From Modestobacter sp. DSM 44400 (GTDB taxonomy: Bacteria; Actinomycetota; Actinomycetes; Mycobacteriales; Geodermatophilaceae), in the NCBI RefSeq assembly GCF_900107175.1, contig NZ_FNOZ01000005.1:1-64000 (forward strand): a stretch of DNA of 64,000 nt. Direction: 5' to 3'. The notes beneath the pieces are model-generated. The model did no database searches. It had not been told where the DNA came from and saw only the letters and a list, made by a program, of their open reading frames with translations. The translations under genes and the position numbers were made by a program. Each line of letters begins with the position of its first letter. Within the stretch, counting starts at the first letter, position 1. Of this stretch, positions 22,570 through 31,343 are shown piece after piece.

Positions 22570-23613
22570 TCAGACCGGGGTGACGGGCACGGTCACCGAT
22601 GTCGTGCCCCCGGCCCAGGTGGGCAGCAGCAGCATCTTGACCCCCGCCCCTCCGGTGACGACGACGTGCACGTCGTCCGGCGAAGCGGCCACCCGCAACC
22701 CGTCCGCGGCGTACGCCGACAGGCCCTGGGCGTCGAGCCGGGCAGCGGCCGAGCGCAGCAGGGCCGTGCCCTGCTCGAACAGGAACGTGGCGATCCGACC
22801 GCCGTCCCACCCGCGCGCGGTGAGCAGATCGGCCAGCTCCGGCGGCAGGAGCAGGAACTGCTCGCCCGACCCGGCCCGCCGGGGATCGCCGGCGGCCAGC
22901 GCGACCGAGGCCAGTGCGGCCGCCGCGGGTGCCAGCACCGAGGGGCCGTCCCGGTGGCCCTCCGCGGGCAGCACCTCCAGGGTCCCGCTCACCCCGACCA
23001 CGGTGACCGCGTCCGTGCCGGGGGGCAGCCCGCGACGCAGCGCCAGGGAGGGGAACGGGGAGTCGGCCGCCTCCGCCGTGCAGCACGTGTACTTGGCCGG
23101 CTGGCCGATGGTCGCCATGTCCGTCAGTCCGGCCCGGGCGCCGCCGATGCCGGCCAGCGCCAGGGACACCGCCCGGCCGATGCAGGCGTTGGGCCGGTTG
23201 CCCGTCCCGAGCCCACCGGCCGCCGAGGTCATCCCGAGCCGGGCCGCGACCGGACCGTGCACCAGTACGGCCACTGCCGGCGAGCCGGTGGTCGTCGCGA
23301 TGCCGAGCAGGTTGAAGCGCGGGTCCAGCGCCGCCCGCACCGCGGCCAGCACCACCGGCAGCTCGGCCGGCCGGCAGCCGGCCAGCACGGCGTACCAGGC
23401 GACCGCCCGGGCCGTCAGCTCTCCGAACAGCGGCGGGACCTGGCCGGTGGAGCGGTCCGGGTCGGCGACGCCGGCCAGCATCGCGTCGAGCCGGGCAGCT
23501 GTCGGGGGCACGACCGGCAGGCCGTCGCCGAGCCCGGCGGCGAGCAGCTCCGCCAGCACCAGCGCCGGGTCCGTGCCGTCGGCCACCAGCGGCAGATCGG
23601 CCGGCGACGTCAC
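22570..23613 (-). CDS. UGSC-operon protein C, paralogue of protein B (unknown function)
   Basis: A 347-residue soluble protein with no family name I can give. It is a clear paralogue of the gene before it: shared blocks are GDGLPVVPPTAARL, LAGCRPAELPVVLAAVRAAL, NACIGRAVSLALAGIGGARAG, QPAKYTCCTAE, DSPFPSLALRRGLP and a C-terminal VVVTGGAGVKMLLLPTWAGG. Conserved Cys residues (AGCRPA, YTCC) are candidates for redox or metal roles. The GTG start overlaps the TGA of protein B (GTGA), so the two are made together, probably as a heteromer, and follow the TrxR-UGSC selenoprotein gene. Role inferred only from context. Confidence 0.75.
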   Translation of the reverse strand: MTSPADLPLVADGTDPALVLAELLAAGLGDGLPVVPPTAARLDAMLAGVADPDRSTGQVPPLFGELTARAVAWYAVLAGCRPAELPVVLAAVRAALDPRFNLLGIATTTGSPAVAVLVHGPVAARLGMTSAAGGLGTGNRPNACIGRAVSLALAGIGGARAGLTDMATIGQPAKYTCCTAEAADSPFPSLALRRGLPPGTDAVTVVGVSGTLEVLPAEGHRDGPSVLAPAAAALASVALAAGDPRRAGSGEQFLLLPPELADLLTARGWDGGRIATFLFEQGTALLRSAAARLDAQGLSAYAADGLRVAASPDDVHVVVTGGAGVKMLLLPTWAGGTTSVTVPVTPV

Positions 23614-24644
23614 GTCGGGACGGGCACCGGTCGCGACACCGCGGCCGTGGCCCCGAAGGACGGGATCCATGCCGAGTGCTTCCCCGCGCCCCCGGCCACG
23701 AGCACGTGCAGCTGCTCCGGCCCGGTACTTACGGGAAAGGCGTCGCCGTCGGGCTGCACACCCCAGTCCTCGAACTGTCGCTGGTTGGCCCGGGACACCT
23801 TCTCGACCGGGATCCGCGCCCGTTCCCACAGCGCCTGCTGCAGGTCCGGCACGGTCCAGCCGTCGCGGTGCAGCGTGGCCGCGTGCTCGGGCCCGAGCAC
23901 CAGGAAGTGCGGACCCTTGACATAGACGTTGTTCGACCCCGGCTGGGCCATCGTGCCGGCGATGGTCAGCAGCAGGTCCTCGCCGGTCGTGCTGCCGTGG
24001 TCGTTGATGTTGTGCGGCCCCTCGGTGGCCGCGACGGTGACCACCGACTGGCCGGAGCCGAACCCGCGGCGCACCGAGTACGGCTCGAACGGGCTCTCCT
24101 CCTCGTTCTCGCCGAAGCAGAACGAGTACTTCGCCGGGCCGCCCTGGGTGGACCGGTCCATCGAGCCCGGACGGGCGCCGCCGATGTGCGTGGTCACCAG
24201 CTGCACCGCCCGGCCGATCACGGCGTTGGCCCGGGTGCCCTGGCCGAAGCAGTTGGCGCCGCAGTTGATCCCGAGGTCCAGCCGCGCCGGTCCGTTGACC
24301 ACCACCAGCGGTGCGCACGGGTGCGTGGTCGCGAGCACGCCGTGCAGGTTGTACTCGGGCGCGAGCAGCGCCCGGATCGCGACCAGCACCACCGGCAGGT
24401 CGGCGGGCCGGCAACCGGCCATCACCGCGTTCGCGGCGAAGCTCTCCCGGGTGGGCACCAGCCCGGACGGCGGCACCGGCGCCAGCTCCAGGTCGAAGCC
24501 CGCCAGCGCGGCCAGGGCCGCCTCGACCCGCGCCGGGGTCGGGGCGACCGTCGGCAGCCCGTCGCCCCAGCCGCGCCGGAACGCCTCCTCCTGCCAGCTC
24601 TCCTCCGTCACCCCCGGCAGGTCGAGCACACCGAGCTCGGTCAC
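23610..24644 (-). CDS. UGSC-operon protein B, paralogue of protein C (unknown function)
   Basis: A 344-residue soluble protein. Motifs shared with protein C: GDGLPTVAPTPARV, NAVMAGCRPADLPVVLVAIRA, NAVIGRAVQLVTTHIGGARPG, GPAKYSFCFGENEEESPFEP, and VLVAGGAGKHSAWIPSFG. It has two extra Cys in GINCGANCFGQG. The GTG start at 24644 overlaps by four bases the TGA (24641-24643) that ends the UGSC domain, i.e. its translation is coupled to ribosomes that have read through the internal TAG of the preceding gene. Function unknown; a partner of the UGSC redox protein is the best inference. Confidence 0.78.
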   Translation of the reverse strand: MTELGVLDLPGVTEESWQEEAFRRGWGDGLPTVAPTPARVEAALAALAGFDLELAPVPPSGLVPTRESFAANAVMAGCRPADLPVVLVAIRALLAPEYNLHGVLATTHPCAPLVVVNGPARLDLGINCGANCFGQGTRANAVIGRAVQLVTTHIGGARPGSMDRSTQGGPAKYSFCFGENEEESPFEPYSVRRGFGSGQSVVTVAATEGPHNINDHGSTTGEDLLLTIAGTMAQPGSNNVYVKGPHFLVLGPEHAATLHRDGWTVPDLQQALWERARIPVEKVSRANQRQFEDWGVQPDGDAFPVSTGPEQLHVLVAGGAGKHSAWIPSFGATAAVSRPVPVPT

Positions 24645-26095
24645 GACGTACCCCGGGCTTCGTCGGCCAGTGCCAGCAGCGCCGCGGCGGCAAAGGCGAT
24701 CTTTTCGGCCAGCTCCGCCTCGTTCAGCCCGCCGATCGGGTGCGGCACGACGATGACCCGCGGGTCCACCCGCCGCGCCTTGGCCTGCGCCTGCACCAGC
24801 GGCAGGAACGTCGAGGTCACCACCAGCGGTGCCACGACGCCACGCTTCTCCAGTTCCACCGAGTCGTGGAGACTCCACGACGAGCACGAGCCCTAATCAC
24901 CGGCGGCCACCAGGACCATGCGATAGCGCTGGGCCAGCCAGTCGATGGTGTCCCCGTCGGCGGGAACCGAGGCACTCTCCTTGCTGGCGAACCCGAGCTC
25001 GGGCAGGTCCCAGTGCGCGCGCAGCTTCGCGCCCATGCCCTGCAGCAGCTCGGTCGCGTTGGGCTTGGAGTTGGAGAACAGCGCGACCTGTGTCCAGTCG
25101 GTGGTGCCGGCCGGCGCCCCGGCAGCGGCTCCCTCGTCCTCCGGCAGGACGCCGTGTGTGGGGTCGATGATCCGCAGGTTGAGCCCGCCGTCCGCCGGCC
25201 GCAACGCGGCCACCGCGGCCTCCCCGGCGCGCGTCCCGTCGGCGGTCGCGGCGGCCAGCGACTGCTCGGCGCCGGCGCGCGCGTCACCGGCCACGAACAC
25301 GGGGCCGACCGCGGCCGGGGCGCCGCTCCCGGCGTGCAACCGGCCCGCCGCGTCGGCCGGCACGCCGTCGACGAGCCCGGCCGGCCCGCGCCGCCCGACG
25401 TAGGAAAACAGACCGCTCACCGCCAGCTCCCGCTCCCCGCCGGCGGTGCGGACGATGACGCCGGACAGCACGCCACTCCCCCGCAGCGCCACCACCGACG
25501 CGGAGGTGAGCACCTCGACCCGGTCCGCGGCCGCCAGCCGCTCGGCGCGGGCCGCCGACCAGCGCGGCTCCCCCGGCACCAGCACGGTGACCGTCGAGGC
25601 GAGACCGGCCAGTTCCAGCGCCTCATCGGCGGTCCACTCGTCGTCGCCGACGACCGCCACCGACCTGTCCCGGAAGAGCGGCCCGTCGCATCCGGCGCAG
25701 GTCGAGACGCCGCGGCCGACGAGCTCCTCCTCGCCCCGGAGACCGAGCCGGCCGGCGCTCAGGCCCGTGGCGACGAGGACCGCACCGGCGGTGACCTCGC
25801 CGTCGGTGGTCGACAGGCGCGGCGGCGCGCCGGCGTGCACCCGGGTGACCTCCGCGAAGTTCATCGTGACGCCGGCGGCCGCTGCCTGCGCGACCAGCTC
25901 GGCCATCAGCTCGCTGGCCCCAGACACCAGTCCCGGCTGCGGGAAGTCGTGCAGGACCGTCAGGTTCACCAGCTGACCGCCCGGTGCCATGCGGTCATAG
26001 GCCACCACCCGCAGACCCGACCGCGCCGCCACGGTGGCCGCGGTCAGCCCGGCGGTGCCGGCGCCGACGACGGCGACGTCCCAGTCGGTGGTCAT
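24641..26095 (-). CDS. Thioredoxin reductase-UGSC fusion selenoprotein, internal TAG read as selenocysteine
   Basis: One continuous frame of 484 residues if the TAG at 24893-24895 is decoded. Residues 1-~300 are a TrxR-like flavoprotein: FAD motif VVGAGTAGL, redox pair Cys133/Cys136 in STCAGCDGPLF, a degenerate NAD site VAVVGDDEWTADEAL, and FVAGDARAG. Residues ~306-484 form a UGSC domain: RIIDPTHGV, ALFSNSKPNATELLQG, KESASVPAD, LVAAGD, then residue 401 (TAG) followed by GSCSSWSLHDSVELEKRGV and VVPHPIGGLNEAE. In the UGSC family this residue is Sec or Cys. A SECIS-like hairpin follows the TAG. Start ATG 26095 overlaps the preceding acyl-CoA dehydrogenase stop (ATGA). If the TAG acted as a stop, a 400-residue product without the UGSC centre would result. 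Confidence 0.88.
24863..24895 (-). promoter_or_regulatory. Bacterial SECIS-like hairpin directly after the UAG codon
   Basis: On the minus strand the TAG occupies 24895-24893. Starting 12 bases later, GTCGTGGA (24881-24874) pairs perfectly with TCCACGAC (24870-24863), leaving the three-base loop GTC (24873-24871). Bacterial SECIS elements lie just behind the Sec codon with a short apical stem whose small loop begins with G followed by U, bound by SelB; distance, size and loop bases all fit here. Confidence 0.7.
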
Positions 26096-27171
26096 GCGCT
26101 CACCAGCCCGGTCGAGATCCGCGGCCACAGCTCATCGGCGCCCGCCTCGGCCAGCCGCCGGCCCAGCTCGCGGCTCCAGTACCGCTCGCTGCCGAACTCG
26201 TCGCGCCACGACCACAGCCGTCGGCTGAGCTGGCCGAGCTCGTACTCCTTGGTCATGCCGATGGCGCCGTGCGCCTGATGGGCCGCGGCCGCCGCCCCCG
26301 TCGCCGCCTCGCCGGCGACCGTCTTGGCCGCCGCCACGTCGAAGAACGACGGGTCGGGCGCGGCGTTCAGCGCGGCGACCGTGCTGGCCATTCCCGCCAG
26401 CTGCGCCTCCTCGGCGATGTGCACCAGGTGTGCCTGCACCGCCTGGAAGCGGGAGATGGGCCGGCCGAACTGGTGCCGCTCGTCGGTGTAGCGGACGGTC
26501 AACTCGGCGACCCGGGCCAGCGCGCCGGAGATCAGCGCCGCCCGGCCGAGAGCCCCGCGCAGCCGTAGCTGGTCGGCGTCCACCCCGGGTGGGGCCGGGG
26601 CGACCGAGTCGTCGGAGACCGCGGCGCCGTTCCAGCTGAGGGTGTCGCGCGGCTCGGCGGCGAGGTTGCGGCCCGGCGTTGCCTGCGCGGACGACGTCGG
26701 CGCCGACACGACGTACCGCTCGCCGCCGACGGCGGCGAGGACGACCACCCGCGTGCTCCGCCGTCCCCACGGAACGCGGTGCAGCCGGGCGGTCAGCCGC
26801 CAGGAGCCGGGGCTCCCGGTCAGCTCCACGACGTCACGCGGCCGGCCCACCCCCACGCTCACCGGGCCCGCGGGCAACGGCAGGCCGGCCGCGGCCAGCG
26901 CCCAGCCGCCCAGCAGCCCGGCCTCGGCCAGCGGCACCGGTGCGGCGTAGCGCCCGGCCACCGACAGCAGCGCGCAGGCGTCGGCGACGTCGCCCCCGGA
27001 CCCACCGGCGGTCTCGGGCACCGACACGTACGGAAAGTGCGCCTCGGTCAGCGCCCGCCACAGCGGCTCGCTCCAGCCGGTGGCCTCGGCGGCGACGACG
27101 TCCTCGGGGGTGCACAGGTCGCGGAACAGACCCGCGGCCACCTCGGTCAGCAGAGTGCGCTCGTCGCTCAT
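26092..27171 (-). CDS. Acyl-CoA dehydrogenase, small/beta-type subunit
   Basis: A 359-residue acyl-CoA dehydrogenase-family protein. The N-terminal helices (EPLWRALTEAHFPYVSVPE, GGSGGDVADA), a divergent middle beta domain and a C-terminal helical domain with RYTDERHQFGRPISRFQAVQ, HQAHGAIGMTKEYELGQL are visible. The ERHQFG(R)PI..FQ(A/A)VQ block is the FAD/CoA-interacting motif. It directly follows a second, longer ACAD with a four-base overlap; such adjacent pairs in actinobacteria form alpha2beta2 heterotetramers (steroid side-chain FadE/ChsE pairs), which I infer here. It is followed without a gap by the selenoprotein gene. Confidence 0.87.
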   Translation of the reverse strand: MSDERTLLTEVAAGLFRDLCTPEDVVAAEATGWSEPLWRALTEAHFPYVSVPETAGGSGGDVADACALLSVAGRYAAPVPLAEAGLLGGWALAAAGLPLPAGPVSVGVGRPRDVVELTGSPGSWRLTARLHRVPWGRRSTRVVVLAAVGGERYVVSAPTSSAQATPGRNLAAEPRDTLSWNGAAVSDDSVAPAPPGVDADQLRLRGALGRAALISGALARVAELTVRYTDERHQFGRPISRFQAVQAHLVHIAEEAQLAGMASTVAALNAAPDPSFFDVAAAKTVAGEAATGAAAAAHQAHGAIGMTKEYELGQLSRRLWSWRDEFGSERYWSRELGRRLAEAGADELWPRISTGLVSA

Positions 27172-28307
27172 GTGGACAGCCCCTTCGCGGCGACGGACCG
27201 GAGGATCTCGGTGGTGCCGCCGCGCAGCGTGAACGACGGACCGGTCAGCACCGCCTCGGCCAGCAGCGCATGGAACAGCGAGCCGGAGTCCGCGTCGACC
27301 TCGGTCTCGGCGCAGGTACGCAGCACCTCGACGACCTCCTGCTCGAACCGGGTGCCGACCTCCTTGACCAGCGCCGCCTCGACGGCGGGGGCCGCACCGG
27401 CATCGAGGGCACGGGCGACCGCCAGCGACAGCTGCCGGATCGCCCAGTACCGCGCGGCGAGGCGACCGACGACGGTGGCCTCCTCGTCCGAGACCGCCTT
27501 GCCGGGGCCCTCGCGCAGGAACTCGCGCAGCACCGTGAAGGTGGACAGCCACCGGTCGGGCCCGCTGCGCTCGTAGGCCAGCTCGGACGTCACCTGCCGC
27601 CAGCCGGAGCCGATCTCGCCGAGCACCCGCTCGTCGGGTACGAACACGTCCTCGAGGGCCACCTCGTTGAAGTGGTGACTGCCGTCCAGGTACGGGATCG
27701 GCGAGACGGTCACCCCGGGCGCGTGCAGGTCCACGATGAGCTGGGAGAGCCCCGCGTGCCGGTTGCCGTCCTCGACCGGCGAGGTCCGGCACAGGACGGC
27801 GAAGAAGTGGTTGAGGTGGGCCAGGCTGGTCCACACCTTGGTGCCGGTGACCGTCCAGCCGCCCTCGACCCTGCTCGCCCGGGTGCGCACCGAGGCGAGG
27901 TCCGAGCCGGAGTCGGGCTCGCTCATCCCGAGGGAGAAGTAACAGTCGCCGGCGGAGATGGCCGGCAGGAACGTCCGCCGTTGCTGTTCGGTGCCGTAGT
28001 GCAGCAGGGCCGGGCCGGTCTGCCGGTCGGCCACGAAGTGCGCCCCGATCGGGGCGCCGGCGGCCAGCAGCTCCTCGGTGACGATGAACCGGTCGACCGC
28101 GGTGCGTCCCCGGCCGCCGTACTCCGGCGGGATCGCCATCCCGACCCAGCCGCGGGCGGCGAGCTTGCGGGAGAAGTCGGGGTCGTGCCGGGCGGCCATG
28201 CCCAGGCCGGGCCGGTGGTCCGGGGGAAGTTCCGCGGCCAGGAACTCCCGCACCTCGCGGCGCAGCGACTCCTCGGCGGGGCTGAGGGTGGTGGGACCGA
28301 ACTGCAT
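27168..28307 (-). CDS. Acyl-CoA dehydrogenase, large/alpha-type subunit
   Basis: A 379-residue acyl-CoA dehydrogenase. Family signatures: REVREFLAAELPPDH at the start, YGGRGRTAVDRFIVTEELLAAG, the flavin-contacting MSEPDSGSDLASVRTRA, VTGTKVWTSLAHLNHF, and the end block FTLRGGTTEILRSVAAKGL. It oxidises acyl-CoA to enoyl-CoA in the cytoplasm with electrons passed to ETF. ATG 28307 has GGAG at a suitable distance. It lies 64 bases behind the enoyl-CoA hydratase gene and overlaps the next ACAD (ATGA), matching a beta-oxidation-like sequence of steps. Confidence 0.9.
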   Translation of the reverse strand: MQFGPTTLSPAEESLRREVREFLAAELPPDHRPGLGMAARHDPDFSRKLAARGWVGMAIPPEYGGRGRTAVDRFIVTEELLAAGAPIGAHFVADRQTGPALLHYGTEQQRRTFLPAISAGDCYFSLGMSEPDSGSDLASVRTRASRVEGGWTVTGTKVWTSLAHLNHFFAVLCRTSPVEDGNRHAGLSQLIVDLHAPGVTVSPIPYLDGSHHFNEVALEDVFVPDERVLGEIGSGWRQVTSELAYERSGPDRWLSTFTVLREFLREGPGKAVSDEEATVVGRLAARYWAIRQLSLAVARALDAGAAPAVEAALVKEVGTRFEQEVVEVLRTCAETEVDADSGSLFHALLAEAVLTGPSFTLRGGTTEILRSVAAKGLST

Positions 28308-28371: not shown

Positions 28372-29109
28372 TCAGCTGGTCTCGCGGCGGCGCTGGGACC
28401 ACATCTGGGTCGCCCGCTCGAAGTGCAGCGCCGCGTCCCAGCCGATTCCGGGCGGTCCGGCCTCGGTGCGGAAGGAGCGCACCGCCTCACGGGCGAGCTC
28501 GGGGTCCTTCGCCGCCCGGCCGGCCAGCTCCAGGGCGAGGTCCTCGACCTGCTCGTCGGGGACGGCCTTCCAGGCCAGCCCGATCTCGGCGGCGCGCACG
28601 CCATCGACCTCCTCGCTGAACAGCCCCATCGCGGCGGTCGCCTCCCGGCCGGCCGTGCGCGAGGAGATGGTGAAATAGCCGCCACCGGGGTGCAGCCCGA
28701 TCCGCAGGAAGCCGGCCATCAGCCGCGCGGTCTCCGACACGACGCGCAGGTCGGTGGACAGCGCCAGGTTGATCCCGGCGCCCACTGCCGCGCCACGGAC
28801 CGCCGCGATCGTCGGCACCTGCAGGGTGCCGACCCGCTTGAACGCGGTGTAGACCGCGCCCAGCTCCTTGTAGGTGGTGTCCTCGGCCTGGTCGGCGCCG
28901 GCCGTCCAGCGCCGACGGTCGGCGCCGGAGCAGAACGTGCCGCCCGCGCCCCGGACGACGGCCGCGCCGATCGCCGGGTCGGCGTCGATGTCGTCGCACA
29001 GCGCCGACAGCTGCAGCCCCATTTCCGGCGTCAGGCCGTTCTTGACCTCGGGCGAGTCGACGGTCAGCACGGCGACGCCGCCCTGCTTCTCCAGCTGTAC
29101 CTGTCCCAC
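28372..29109 (-). CDS. Enoyl-CoA hydratase/isomerase family protein
   Basis: A 245-residue crotonase-fold protein. Oxyanion-hole segments: GGTFCSGADRRRW (first) and RGAAVGAGINLALSTDLRVVSE (second). The position normally carrying the second catalytic Glu reads LRIGLHPGGGYF, so Gly/His occupy it; this suggests an isomerase, thioesterase or other crotonase rather than a classical hydratase. GTG 29109 is the start because the protein then begins with the standard VQLEKQGGVAVLTVDSPE. Second gene of the operon after the acyl-CoA synthetase. Confidence 0.87.
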   Translation of the reverse strand: MGQVQLEKQGGVAVLTVDSPEVKNGLTPEMGLQLSALCDDIDADPAIGAAVVRGAGGTFCSGADRRRWTAGADQAEDTTYKELGAVYTAFKRVGTLQVPTIAAVRGAAVGAGINLALSTDLRVVSETARLMAGFLRIGLHPGGGYFTISSRTAGREATAAMGLFSEEVDGVRAAEIGLAWKAVPDEQVEDLALELAGRAAKDPELAREAVRSFRTEAGPPGIGWDAALHFERATQMWSQRRRETS

Positions 29110-29159: not shown

Positions 29160-31343
29160 CTACTCGCCCAGCGGGGCGCTCGGTCCCGTGCCGACGCCCA
29201 CCAGGACGTCGACCGCGGTCGCCCCGCCGCCGCGGGCAGCGACGATGAGCGGGTTGACCTCGAGCTCGGTCAGCCGGTTCCCGGCCGCCACGACGGCTTC
29301 GGACAACCGCACGACCGCGTCGACGGCGGCCGGGACGTCGGCCGGCGGCGCACCACGGAAGCCGGCCAGCAGCGGCCAGGCCCGCAGGCTGCGAAGCATC
29401 GTCCAGGCCTGCTCCGGGCTCACGGGCGCGAGCCCCGACGCGATGTCGCGGTAGAGCTCGGTGGTCACCCCGCCCAGCCCCACGGTGACCACCGGCGGGA
29501 ACCCGTCCTGTCCCGCGGTGGCGCCGATGATCAGCTCGATGCCCGGGGGGATCAGCTCTTGGACCAGCACGCCCGCGACGTCGGGGACGCGGTGGCGGGT
29601 CGCGGCGTCGAGCAGCTCCGTGAAGACCTGCGCCGCCTCGTCCGTGGCGACGCCGACCCGAACCCCCCCGACGTCGCTCTTGTGCGCGAGTTCGCCGGCG
29701 GACAGCTTGAGGACCCCGGGGCCGGGCAGCGCCGCAACGGCCGCGCGCGCGGCCTCGGGAGTCGTCACGAGCGTGGAGGCCGGCTGGGCGACGCCGATGG
29801 CGCGCAGCAGCGCCGGGCCGTCCACGACCGGGGCCGCCAGCTGGGCGCGCACCGCCTCGGCCGGGAGCCCGGGCGCCGGCGACAGCACGGGGGCGGCGCC
29901 GCGGTACGGCGGTGGGGCCAGCCGCGCGGCGCAGCGGACGAGGTCGCCGACCGAACCGAAGACCGGGATGGCGGCCTCCCGGAAGGCGGCCCGCCCCGCG
30001 GTGGTGAGTTCCTGACCGGCGATCCAGCCGACGAGCAGCGGCGTGGCGAGCTTGCCCGCGGTGACGACGAGGTCCTCGGCCAGCCGGGCACCGGCCTCGC
30101 CGACCACCATCGTCACGAAGACGGCCACGGCGTCGACGGAGGGGTCGTCGGCGACGATCCGGCAGACGTCCCCGAAGGCGTGCGCCCCCCGGTTGAACAG
30201 CTGCGCGGTGACGTCGACCGGGTTGGTCAGGGCGCCGAAGGCCGGGATCAGGGGACGGAGGCGGTCCTGCGTCTCCGCGGACAGTTCGGGCAGCTCGAGG
30301 CCGAGGTCCTCGCACAGGTCGGCGGCCAGGCTGCCGGCACCGCCGGAAGTGGTGACGACGACGACCCGCCGTCCCTCGGACCGCTTGCCGGTGGCGAGCA
30401 CCGCGGCGACCGAGAGGAGCTCGTCGATGTCGTCGACGAGCACCACGCCGTGCTCCCGCGAGGTCAGCACGAACGCCACGTCGTCGCCGAGCATCGACCC
30501 GGTGTGGCTGGCCACCGCACGCCGCCCGGCGCTCGACCGGCCCGAGCGCAGCACGACCAGGTGCTTGCCCGCCGTGCGCGCCTGGCGGGCCAGTGCGGCG
30601 TAGGCCTTCCCGTCGCCGGCGGCCTCGACGTAGAGCATGAGCACCCGGACGGCCGGGTCCTCCAGGAGGGCCCGGGACACCTCGACCAGGCCGAGGTCGG
30701 CCTGGTTGCCGGTGCTGGCCCAGGCAGCCAGACCCAGGCCCATGTCGGTGGCCAGGTCGAGCACGGAACCGCCGACCGCCCCGCTCTGACCCACGTAGGC
30801 GACCCCGCTGTCAGAGGCCAGGGGCCGGTCCGCGGCGGCGGTGAAGGTGGCGACGACCCCGGTCGGCGCGTAGAGGAAGCCCTGGCAGTTCGGGCCCAGC
30901 ACCCGGACCCCGGTCTCCCGCGCGACCGCGGCCAGCCGCTGCTGCAGCGCCACACCCTCCGGGCCGACCTCGGCGAAGCCCGACGCGTACACGACCGCAG
31001 CAGTGGCCCCGGCCGCCGCCGCCTGCCGGATCGCGTCCTCCACGGCCTCGGCCGCGACGAGGACCAGCACCAGGTCCACCGGCCCGGGCACGTGGGCCAG
31101 CGTCGGATAGCACTTCTGCCCGACCAGCTCGTCGTACTTGGGGTTGATCGGGTAGATGGCGCCGGAGTACCCGTGCTCGACCAGGTAGCGCAGCGGGCGG
31201 GCCATCAGGTTGTCCGAGCGGCCGGAGATCCCGAGCAGGGCGATGCCGCGGGGGCGCAGCAGTGCCTGCAGCTCCTCCGACCGCGGAGCCGACGACCGGT
31301 CCCCGGACGTCTCGAGCTGCGGAGGGGGCTGCGGCACGGGCAT
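29160..31343 (-). CDS. Acyl-CoA synthetase (NDP-forming), acetate-CoA ligase family
   Basis: A 727-residue fusion of the two ADP-forming acyl-CoA synthetase chains. N-terminal CoA-binding domain (RPRGIALLGISGRSDNL, AIYPINPKYDE), succinyl-CoA-synthetase-like flavodoxin domains (VLGPNCQGFLY, VAYVGQSGAVGGSVLDLA) with the phosphohistidine region SHTGSMLGDD, then a C-terminal ATP-grasp domain (VLKLSAGELAHKSDVGGVRVGV, ELEVNPLIV). It activates a carboxylic acid to its CoA ester with ATP. First gene of the minus-strand operon: it would feed the hydratase and dehydrogenases behind it. ATG 31343 lies 43 bases after a good promoter that is flanked by the divergent TetR gene. Confidence 0.92.
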   Translation of the reverse strand: MPVPQPPPQLETSGDRSSAPRSEELQALLRPRGIALLGISGRSDNLMARPLRYLVEHGYSGAIYPINPKYDELVGQKCYPTLAHVPGPVDLVLVLVAAEAVEDAIRQAAAAGATAAVVYASGFAEVGPEGVALQQRLAAVARETGVRVLGPNCQGFLYAPTGVVATFTAAADRPLASDSGVAYVGQSGAVGGSVLDLATDMGLGLAAWASTGNQADLGLVEVSRALLEDPAVRVLMLYVEAAGDGKAYAALARQARTAGKHLVVLRSGRSSAGRRAVASHTGSMLGDDVAFVLTSREHGVVLVDDIDELLSVAAVLATGKRSEGRRVVVVTTSGGAGSLAADLCEDLGLELPELSAETQDRLRPLIPAFGALTNPVDVTAQLFNRGAHAFGDVCRIVADDPSVDAVAVFVTMVVGEAGARLAEDLVVTAGKLATPLLVGWIAGQELTTAGRAAFREAAIPVFGSVGDLVRCAARLAPPPYRGAAPVLSPAPGLPAEAVRAQLAAPVVDGPALLRAIGVAQPASTLVTTPEAARAAVAALPGPGVLKLSAGELAHKSDVGGVRVGVATDEAAQVFTELLDAATRHRVPDVAGVLVQELIPPGIELIIGATAGQDGFPPVVTVGLGGVTTELYRDIASGLAPVSPEQAWTMLRSLRAWPLLAGFRGAPPADVPAAVDAVVRLSEAVVAAGNRLTELEVNPLIVAARGGGATAVDVLVGVGTGPSAPLGE

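Follow-up and report, generated by a model that had tools for sequence, protein, structure and literature searches.

In Modestobacter sp. DSM 44400, the bacterium studied here, a reductase gene contains midway a UAG stop codon that very probably encodes selenocysteine (Sec). The gene lies in a stretch of 64,000 nucleotides (the window), and its predicted product joins a thioredoxin reductase (TrxR)-like part to a UGSC domain. Recoding of the UAG at codon 401 as Sec, which would make the product a selenoprotein, is the best explanation of the genomic evidence as a whole, and we hold it with high confidence. Few natural Sec codes apart from UGA have been documented, and the locus is a clear candidate for a UAG-coded selenoprotein found together with its machinery. 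Comparison with its relatives suggests how the Sec codon shifted within a bacterial family.

The fusion gene and its in-frame TAG

Reading the minus strand from 26095 to 24641, we found one frame with an ATG start and a terminal TGA at 24641-24643 (Table 1). Its single in-frame stop is the TAG at codon 401, which is followed by 83 sense codons. An earlier reading of the sequence only had claimed that the frame continues for 83 more codons past the TAG at 24893-24895. The frame itself confirms this, as do third-position GC, which is 0.94 5' and 0.89 3' of the TAG, and the Pfam UGSC model (PF24696), which matches residues 309-474 across the TAG with an E value of 2.8e-34 and 119.2 bits, above its gathering cutoff of 25.

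Table 1. Coordinates of the fusion gene, its parts and neighbors, and related loci on other contigs (window positions unless a locus is named; G000 is the window's genome)
Feature	Coordinates	Strand	Remark
TrxR-like/UGSC fusion gene	24641..26095	-	484 codons plus TGA stop; UAG (putative Sec) at codon 401
In-frame TAG, residue 401, U of U-G-S-C	24893..24895	-	Putative Sec codon; TAG in 19 of 19 fusions
UGSC domain (residues 309-474)	24674..25171	-	Spans the TAG; Pfam match
FAD/NAD(P)H-dependent TrxR-like domain (residues 6-286)	25238..26080	-	Pyr_redox_2 match
C133-A-G-C136, presumed redox pair of the TrxR-like domain	25688..25699	-	Cysteine census of the protein
C404 of the U-G-S-C motif, presumed Sec partner	24884..24886	-	Invariant in alignment A3
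Bacterial SECIS-type hairpin, GUCGUGGA-GUC-UCCACGAC	24863..24881	-	Starts 11 nt after the TAG; comparative evidence
Protein A, partner	23610..24647	-	Starts with GTG, overlapping the terminal TGA of the fusion
Protein B, paralogue of A (38% identical), next gene	22570..23613	-	Sequence comparison
Acyl-CoA dehydrogenase-like gene	26092..27171	-	Stop overlaps the fusion's ATG (ATGA)
Acyl-CoA dehydrogenase	27168..28307	-
Enoyl-CoA hydratase/isomerase	28372..29109	-
CoA ligase, ATP-grasp_5/Succ_CoA_lig type	29160..31337	-	Ordinary TAG stop
SBP_bac_5-type gene with in-frame TAG	L018:9477-11153 (G000 C78)
Second, paralogous SBP_bac_5-type gene, TAG at the Sec column	G000 C115:43823-44791 (L218)	-	Match covers query residues 4-332 only
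UCA tRNA-Sec beside AhpD-like ORF with in-frame TGA	L158:1169-2154 (G059 C17)		Insertion-sequence-rich DNA

The sequence-only reading had called the protein a fusion of thioredoxin reductase and UGSC. The UGSC half stands by its Pfam match; the reductase half scores 187.3 bits against the curated thioredoxin reductase model TIGR01292, below the cutoff of 343.45 bits, and we therefore name it only TrxR-like. That half does contain the CxxC pair and the (predicted) TrxR fold, residues 1-303 of the modeled fusion matching thioredoxin reductase structures. In addition to its low TIGR01292 score, the protein differs from thioredoxin reductases and AhpF-type reductases in its C-terminal, putative Sec domain. 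Compared with the UGSC-containing selenoprotein family (PF24696, NF041046), it has the same domain, the same U-G-S-C motif, and a hairpin after the Sec codon, but it is fused to a TrxR-like domain, has UAG instead of UGA, and scores 103.5 bits against the NCBIfam equivalog NF041046 (cutoff, 125 bits), to which it is thus not assigned.

Because the structural matches end at residue 303, the UGSC fold is outside their reach. In the model of this part, strands alternate with helices and residue 401 lies between a strand and a helix; a PDB search with a UGSC-domain sequence profile gave nothing convincing (best E value, 1.2). The only cysteines of the fusion protein are at 133, 136, and 404. We take C133 and C136 to be a redox pair from what is known of the family, and it is plausible that they form a relay with C404 and U401, in which NAD(P)H would reduce FAD and electrons would then move through C133/C136 in the TrxR-like half and U401/C404 in the UGSC half to the substrate. 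The fusion also suggests an electron donor for UGSC proteins. A passage of PMC2398784 supposes a thioredoxin-like fold for UGSC, and another describes UGSC fused to a different domain (Unknown_1); a literature text search found no mention of a TrxR-UGSC fusion in the accessible text of PMC2398784 or PMC13188914.

The fusion is present in 19 of the 112 Geodermatophilaceae genomes that we compared. The other 18 copies, found like the window's by whole-protein search, are 71-75% identical to it, and in every one of the 19 a single TAG occupies the same column, which rules out chance and makes a sequencing error hardly likely. UGSC domains occur in 54 of the 112 genomes, with 95 matches: 72 with one TAG, 23 with no stop, and none with TGA. 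Beyond the family, we scanned species genomes for UGSC by peptide patterns and kept the best 80 of 581 named loci. The TAG had been proposed to stand at the Sec/Cys position of UGSC proteins, a matter for alignment at column 401. The alignment agrees: among 30 family loci examined, 22 align over the column (8 do not), 17 with TAG and 5 with TGC, the latter being all five of the stop-free loci aligned there, and the best 80 of the 581 named loci have TGA in 75 and TAG in 5, these five belonging to Blastococcus and Geodermatophilus.

The same best 80 of 581 loci bear on the origin of the fusion. A TrxR-like gene with its own stop lies on the same strand, at most 0.8 kb upstream, at 30 of the 75 TGA loci, and at all 5 TAG loci the TrxR-like and UGSC parts share one frame. 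In a sample of the phylum searched at 1e-80, with few candidates scored per genome, only the window's genome has the fusion (1 of 396). Separate genes at the TGA loci and this single occurrence make the fusion look like a Geodermatophilaceae trait, and it looks as though it unites two proteins that UGA-using bacteria often encode in adjacent separate genes. Five of the contigs with UGA-coded UGSC genes (L289, L299, L308, L312, and L322) are metagenome-assembled and titled Bordetella parapertussis, a species label that looks doubtful.

Selenocysteine machinery and the hairpin after the TAG

If the UAG encodes Sec, the sequence-only reading had argued, the same genome should hold selA, selB, selD, and a tRNA-Sec with a CUA anticodon. 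All are present above their cutoffs, on a single contig (C78) of the 182 that make up the 5.0-Mb assembly. The tRNA-Sec (C78:57174-57265) matches the Rfam tRNA-Sec model over 91 positions with 66.9 bits (gathering score, 47), and its anticodon loop, CUCUAAA, gives the anticodon CUA. The selA (421 bits), selB (277 bits), and selD (386 bits) genes exceed curated cutoffs; selA and selB come after the tRNA-Sec, and selD, encoded on the opposite strand, precedes it by about 3.7 kb. A second tRNA hit above the Rfam tRNA-Sec cutoff in this genome was rejected as tRNA-Ser(UGA).

By established bacterial Sec biology, SelA would make Sec on the tRNA-Sec(CUA) with selenophosphate from SelD, and SelB would bring the Sec-tRNA to the ribosome and bind the hairpin. 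With SelB bound there, only that UAG, not UAG generally, would be read as Sec, and termination would compete with this reading.

The case for the hairpin rests on comparison, since the 64-nt stretch taken singly folds with an ordinary energy (z, -0.09) and the Cys forms of that stretch come close to the others (mean, -10.0 kcal/mol, versus -12.1 for TAG and -10.9 for TGA forms). In the 19 fusions, the nucleotides 3' of the TAG are almost identical: the synonymous codon difference after the TAG is 0.064 over 16 columns versus 0.304 elsewhere, and the lowest of 214 other windows has 0.146. The seven inner pairs form in all 79 distinct Sec sequences (19 TAG and 60 TGA) and the outermost pair forms in 19 of 19 TAG and 31 of 60 TGA sequences, with named loci taken from the best 80 of 581, whose conservation is inflated at the hairpin because the peptide patterns include hairpin codons; the 19 fusions are unaffected. 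In five Cys sequences, these inner pairs form in 22 of 35 cells.

For covariation, we used 38 sequences picked by hand from 116 Sec rows. In this set, 97.4% of cells are paired, versus 14.8-50.3% when the hairpin is slid, and three pairs have changes on both sides. None of 500 shuffles attained this paired share, and none attained the covariation score of 0.187. Of the five measures, two are not above the shuffles, namely pairs with both-sided changes (reached by 61 of 500) and pair types (343 of 500), and the hairpin slid by -2 has 16 both-sided cells versus 15 in the true register. An Rfam search around the TAG returned no SECIS family, and its one match was below the gathering score and on the opposite strand. 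On this comparison, the predicted hairpin is constrained at synonymous sites and is common to UGA-coded UGSC genes of other phyla.

If the UAG were an ordinary stop, the TrxR-like protein would end at residue 400, with the UGSC half dead or the TAG a nonsense mutation. Translation table 11 does terminate the frame at codon 401, and TAG ends 3 of the 48 other called genes in the window. However, such a stop would split the UGSC domain in two, and it fits poorly with the 19 of 19 genomes that share this TAG and keep the frame open beyond it, with the TGA that 75 of 80 named relatives (the best 80 of 581) have at this column, and with Sec machinery of matching anticodon in the genome; we regard termination here as very improbable. 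A near-cognate tRNA or a suppressor might also read the UAG as an ordinary amino acid, without selenium. Low-level stop-codon read-through is a general phenomenon, and nothing specific to this gene adds to it, whereas the synonymous-site-constrained hairpin common to UGA-coded UGSC genes and the tRNA-Sec(CUA) in 101 of the 108 genomes with a tRNA-Sec leave such a reading only a slight chance.

Insertion of pyrrolysine would agree with the ARAGORN label of the tRNA, "tRNA-Pyl," which goes with a CUA anticodon. Yet it is the same tRNA that fits the Rfam tRNA-Sec model over 91 positions with 66.9 bits, selA, selB, and selD are on its contig, and relatives show either TGA or a Cys codon at this position, so that we give pyrrolysine almost no credence. 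Decoding of the UAG as Sec is the reading we retain. Mukai et al. reportedly described, in 2016, the UAG-programmed selenocysteine of Geodermatophilaceae, a report whose title is cited in the paper discussed next and which we take to be its reference 56.

PMC5330540 lists three Geodermatophilaceae genomes with tRNA-Sec(CUA), credits FDH and UGSC-motif selenoproteins to its reference 56, and adds AhpC in B. saxobsidens DD2. The UAG-programmed Sec named by the sequence-only reading is thus in print, with the correction that UGSC proteins are already included there; in view of that text, the finding is very probably real and known in kind. The window's genome resembles this described system in its tRNA-Sec(CUA), its selA, selB, and selD, a UAG at the Sec/Cys column, and a SECIS-type hairpin supported by comparison. 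Added here are the history of the fusion, a family-wide anticodon map, an SBP_bac_5-type family, and a genome with both CUA and UCA tRNA-Sec (G059).

Sec codons across the Geodermatophilaceae

A tRNA-Sec was found in 108 of the 112 family genomes, the four without it being 72-82% complete. The 110 matches comprise 102 with the anticodon CUA and 8 with UCA. Counted by genome, CUA occurs in 101 of 108 and UCA alone in 7 (genera g6, g7, and g8); G059, a CUA genome, also has a UCA copy. The "tRNA-Pyl" label is given by ARAGORN to the CUA tRNA-Sec at L001 and at 22 of the 30 loci L049-L078, so automatic annotation of Geodermatophilaceae may report a pyrrolysine tRNA. Formate dehydrogenase (Fdh-alpha) matches at 1e-120 occur in 91 of the 112 genomes, G000 not among them; TGA forms are confined to G072, G074, and G075, and no TAG form is found among these matches.

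Between the tRNA-Sec(CUA) and selA of the window's genome lies a gene of 558 codons for an SBP_bac_5 protein (PF00496, 130 bits), with one TAG, at codon 161. The TAG falls in a motif that is mostly GEGHW-U-(V/I/A)IDxPGPW. This protein or a paralogue was found at 1e-60 in 14 of the 112 family genomes, and the Sec column of 18 family loci holds TAG in 16, TGA in 1, and TAA in 1. The TGA gene (L205) adjoins a UCA tRNA-Sec, and a CUA tRNA lies beside five TAG loci. Of the 396 genomes sampled from the phylum, 24 have a match: the window's genome itself and 23 from a single other actinobacterial family, whose 24 retrieved loci (of 25 rows) uniformly carry TGA at the Sec column. Within the class to which this family belongs, 24 of 39 genomes match, each row with at least one TGA, the column itself having been checked only in the 24 loci. 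A predicted hairpin is supported here too: across 40 distinct sequences, each pair forms in 38 to 40, with a C-G/G-C exchange at one.

No Cys form of the SBP_bac_5-type protein was found at the thresholds used. The protein did not match the models of SaoX and SaoB at 0.001, which are the substrate-binding selenoproteins in Table 1 of PMC13188914, and a selenoprotein of the SBP_bac_5 type was found neither in that table nor in text searches of the literature. It looks like an unlisted selenoprotein family, with TAG in CUA genomes and TGA elsewhere. Two of its loci are irregular. L206 and L217 (G048 C1) are one gene in two frames, split at about query residue 227 by a frameshift or a sequencing error. 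L213 (G075 C70), from a genome with the UCA anticodon, carries TAA at the Sec column plus another TAG in frame; it may be a decayed gene, an assembly problem, or something else, and unless decayed it falls outside the scheme of code change.

Within the Geodermatophilaceae, the anticodon would have changed from UCA to CUA, a direction that we infer from outgroups, and the Sec codons examined (UGSC and SBP_bac_5-type) from UGA to UAG, while the hairpins stayed. We favor, with moderate confidence, a joint reading in which most of the family moved Sec from UGA to UAG keeping its hairpins, with other genera still at UCA/UGA, the SBP_bac_5-type family was carried along, and at least one member gained a UGA-reading tRNA-Sec. 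The 112 genomes supply matched genes, with the same protein and the same hairpin but UGA or UAG, for following a code change through a selenoproteome. Among the 48 other genes called in the GC-rich window, the stop is UGA in 45 and UAG in only 3. Moving to UAG would thus place Sec on a stop that is seldom used, a testable idea for why the code changed.

The member with both tRNAs, G059, has its CUA tRNA-Sec on contig C11 and its UCA tRNA-Sec on contig C17, the first 19 kb of which contain transposase and antitoxin genes. The AhpD-like ORF, 0.3 kb from the UCA tRNA-Sec, scores 112.6 bits versus 81.8 with TIGR01926, and its TGA lies in a CFY-U motif followed by a predicted 7-bp hairpin. The 19-kb piece gave no match at 1e-4 to SelA, SelB, SelD, or the SBP_bac_5-type protein of G000. 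With a second, UGA-reading tRNA-Sec, the cell may use UGA and UAG side by side as Sec codons; alternatively, C17 may be assembly contamination.

The gene row around the fusion

The flanking genes both overlap the fusion, by ATGA on one side and GTGA on the other, and the UGSC half thus sits within a tightly packed gene row. In all 19 fusions, the terminal TGA overlaps the start of the next gene (ATGA, GTGA, or TTGA), the arrangement one would expect if ribosomes continued beyond the TAG.

Proteins A and B have no match in Pfam or NCBIfam at 0.001. The predicted fold of protein A has a pLDDT of 88.3; Foldseek with this model found no match below an E value of 0.02 among solved structures, and a PDB search with its sequence profile found nothing convincing (best E value, 0.19). 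Among the best 80 of 581 UGSC loci, a homologue of A occurs at 74, in several phyla, and hits to B occur at 73, partly falling on A because the two proteins are 38% identical. The fusion may act together with A and B, within an operon of acyl-CoA-type enzymes, and the neighboring genes suggest that its chemistry is linked to acyl-CoA. The two acyl-CoA dehydrogenases and the enoyl-CoA hydratase are found only at the 5 Geodermatophilaceae loci among the best 80 of 581. A crude codon-usage caller gave 49 genes in the window, with UGA as the stop of 45, UAG of 4 (one of them the Sec codon), and UAA of none.
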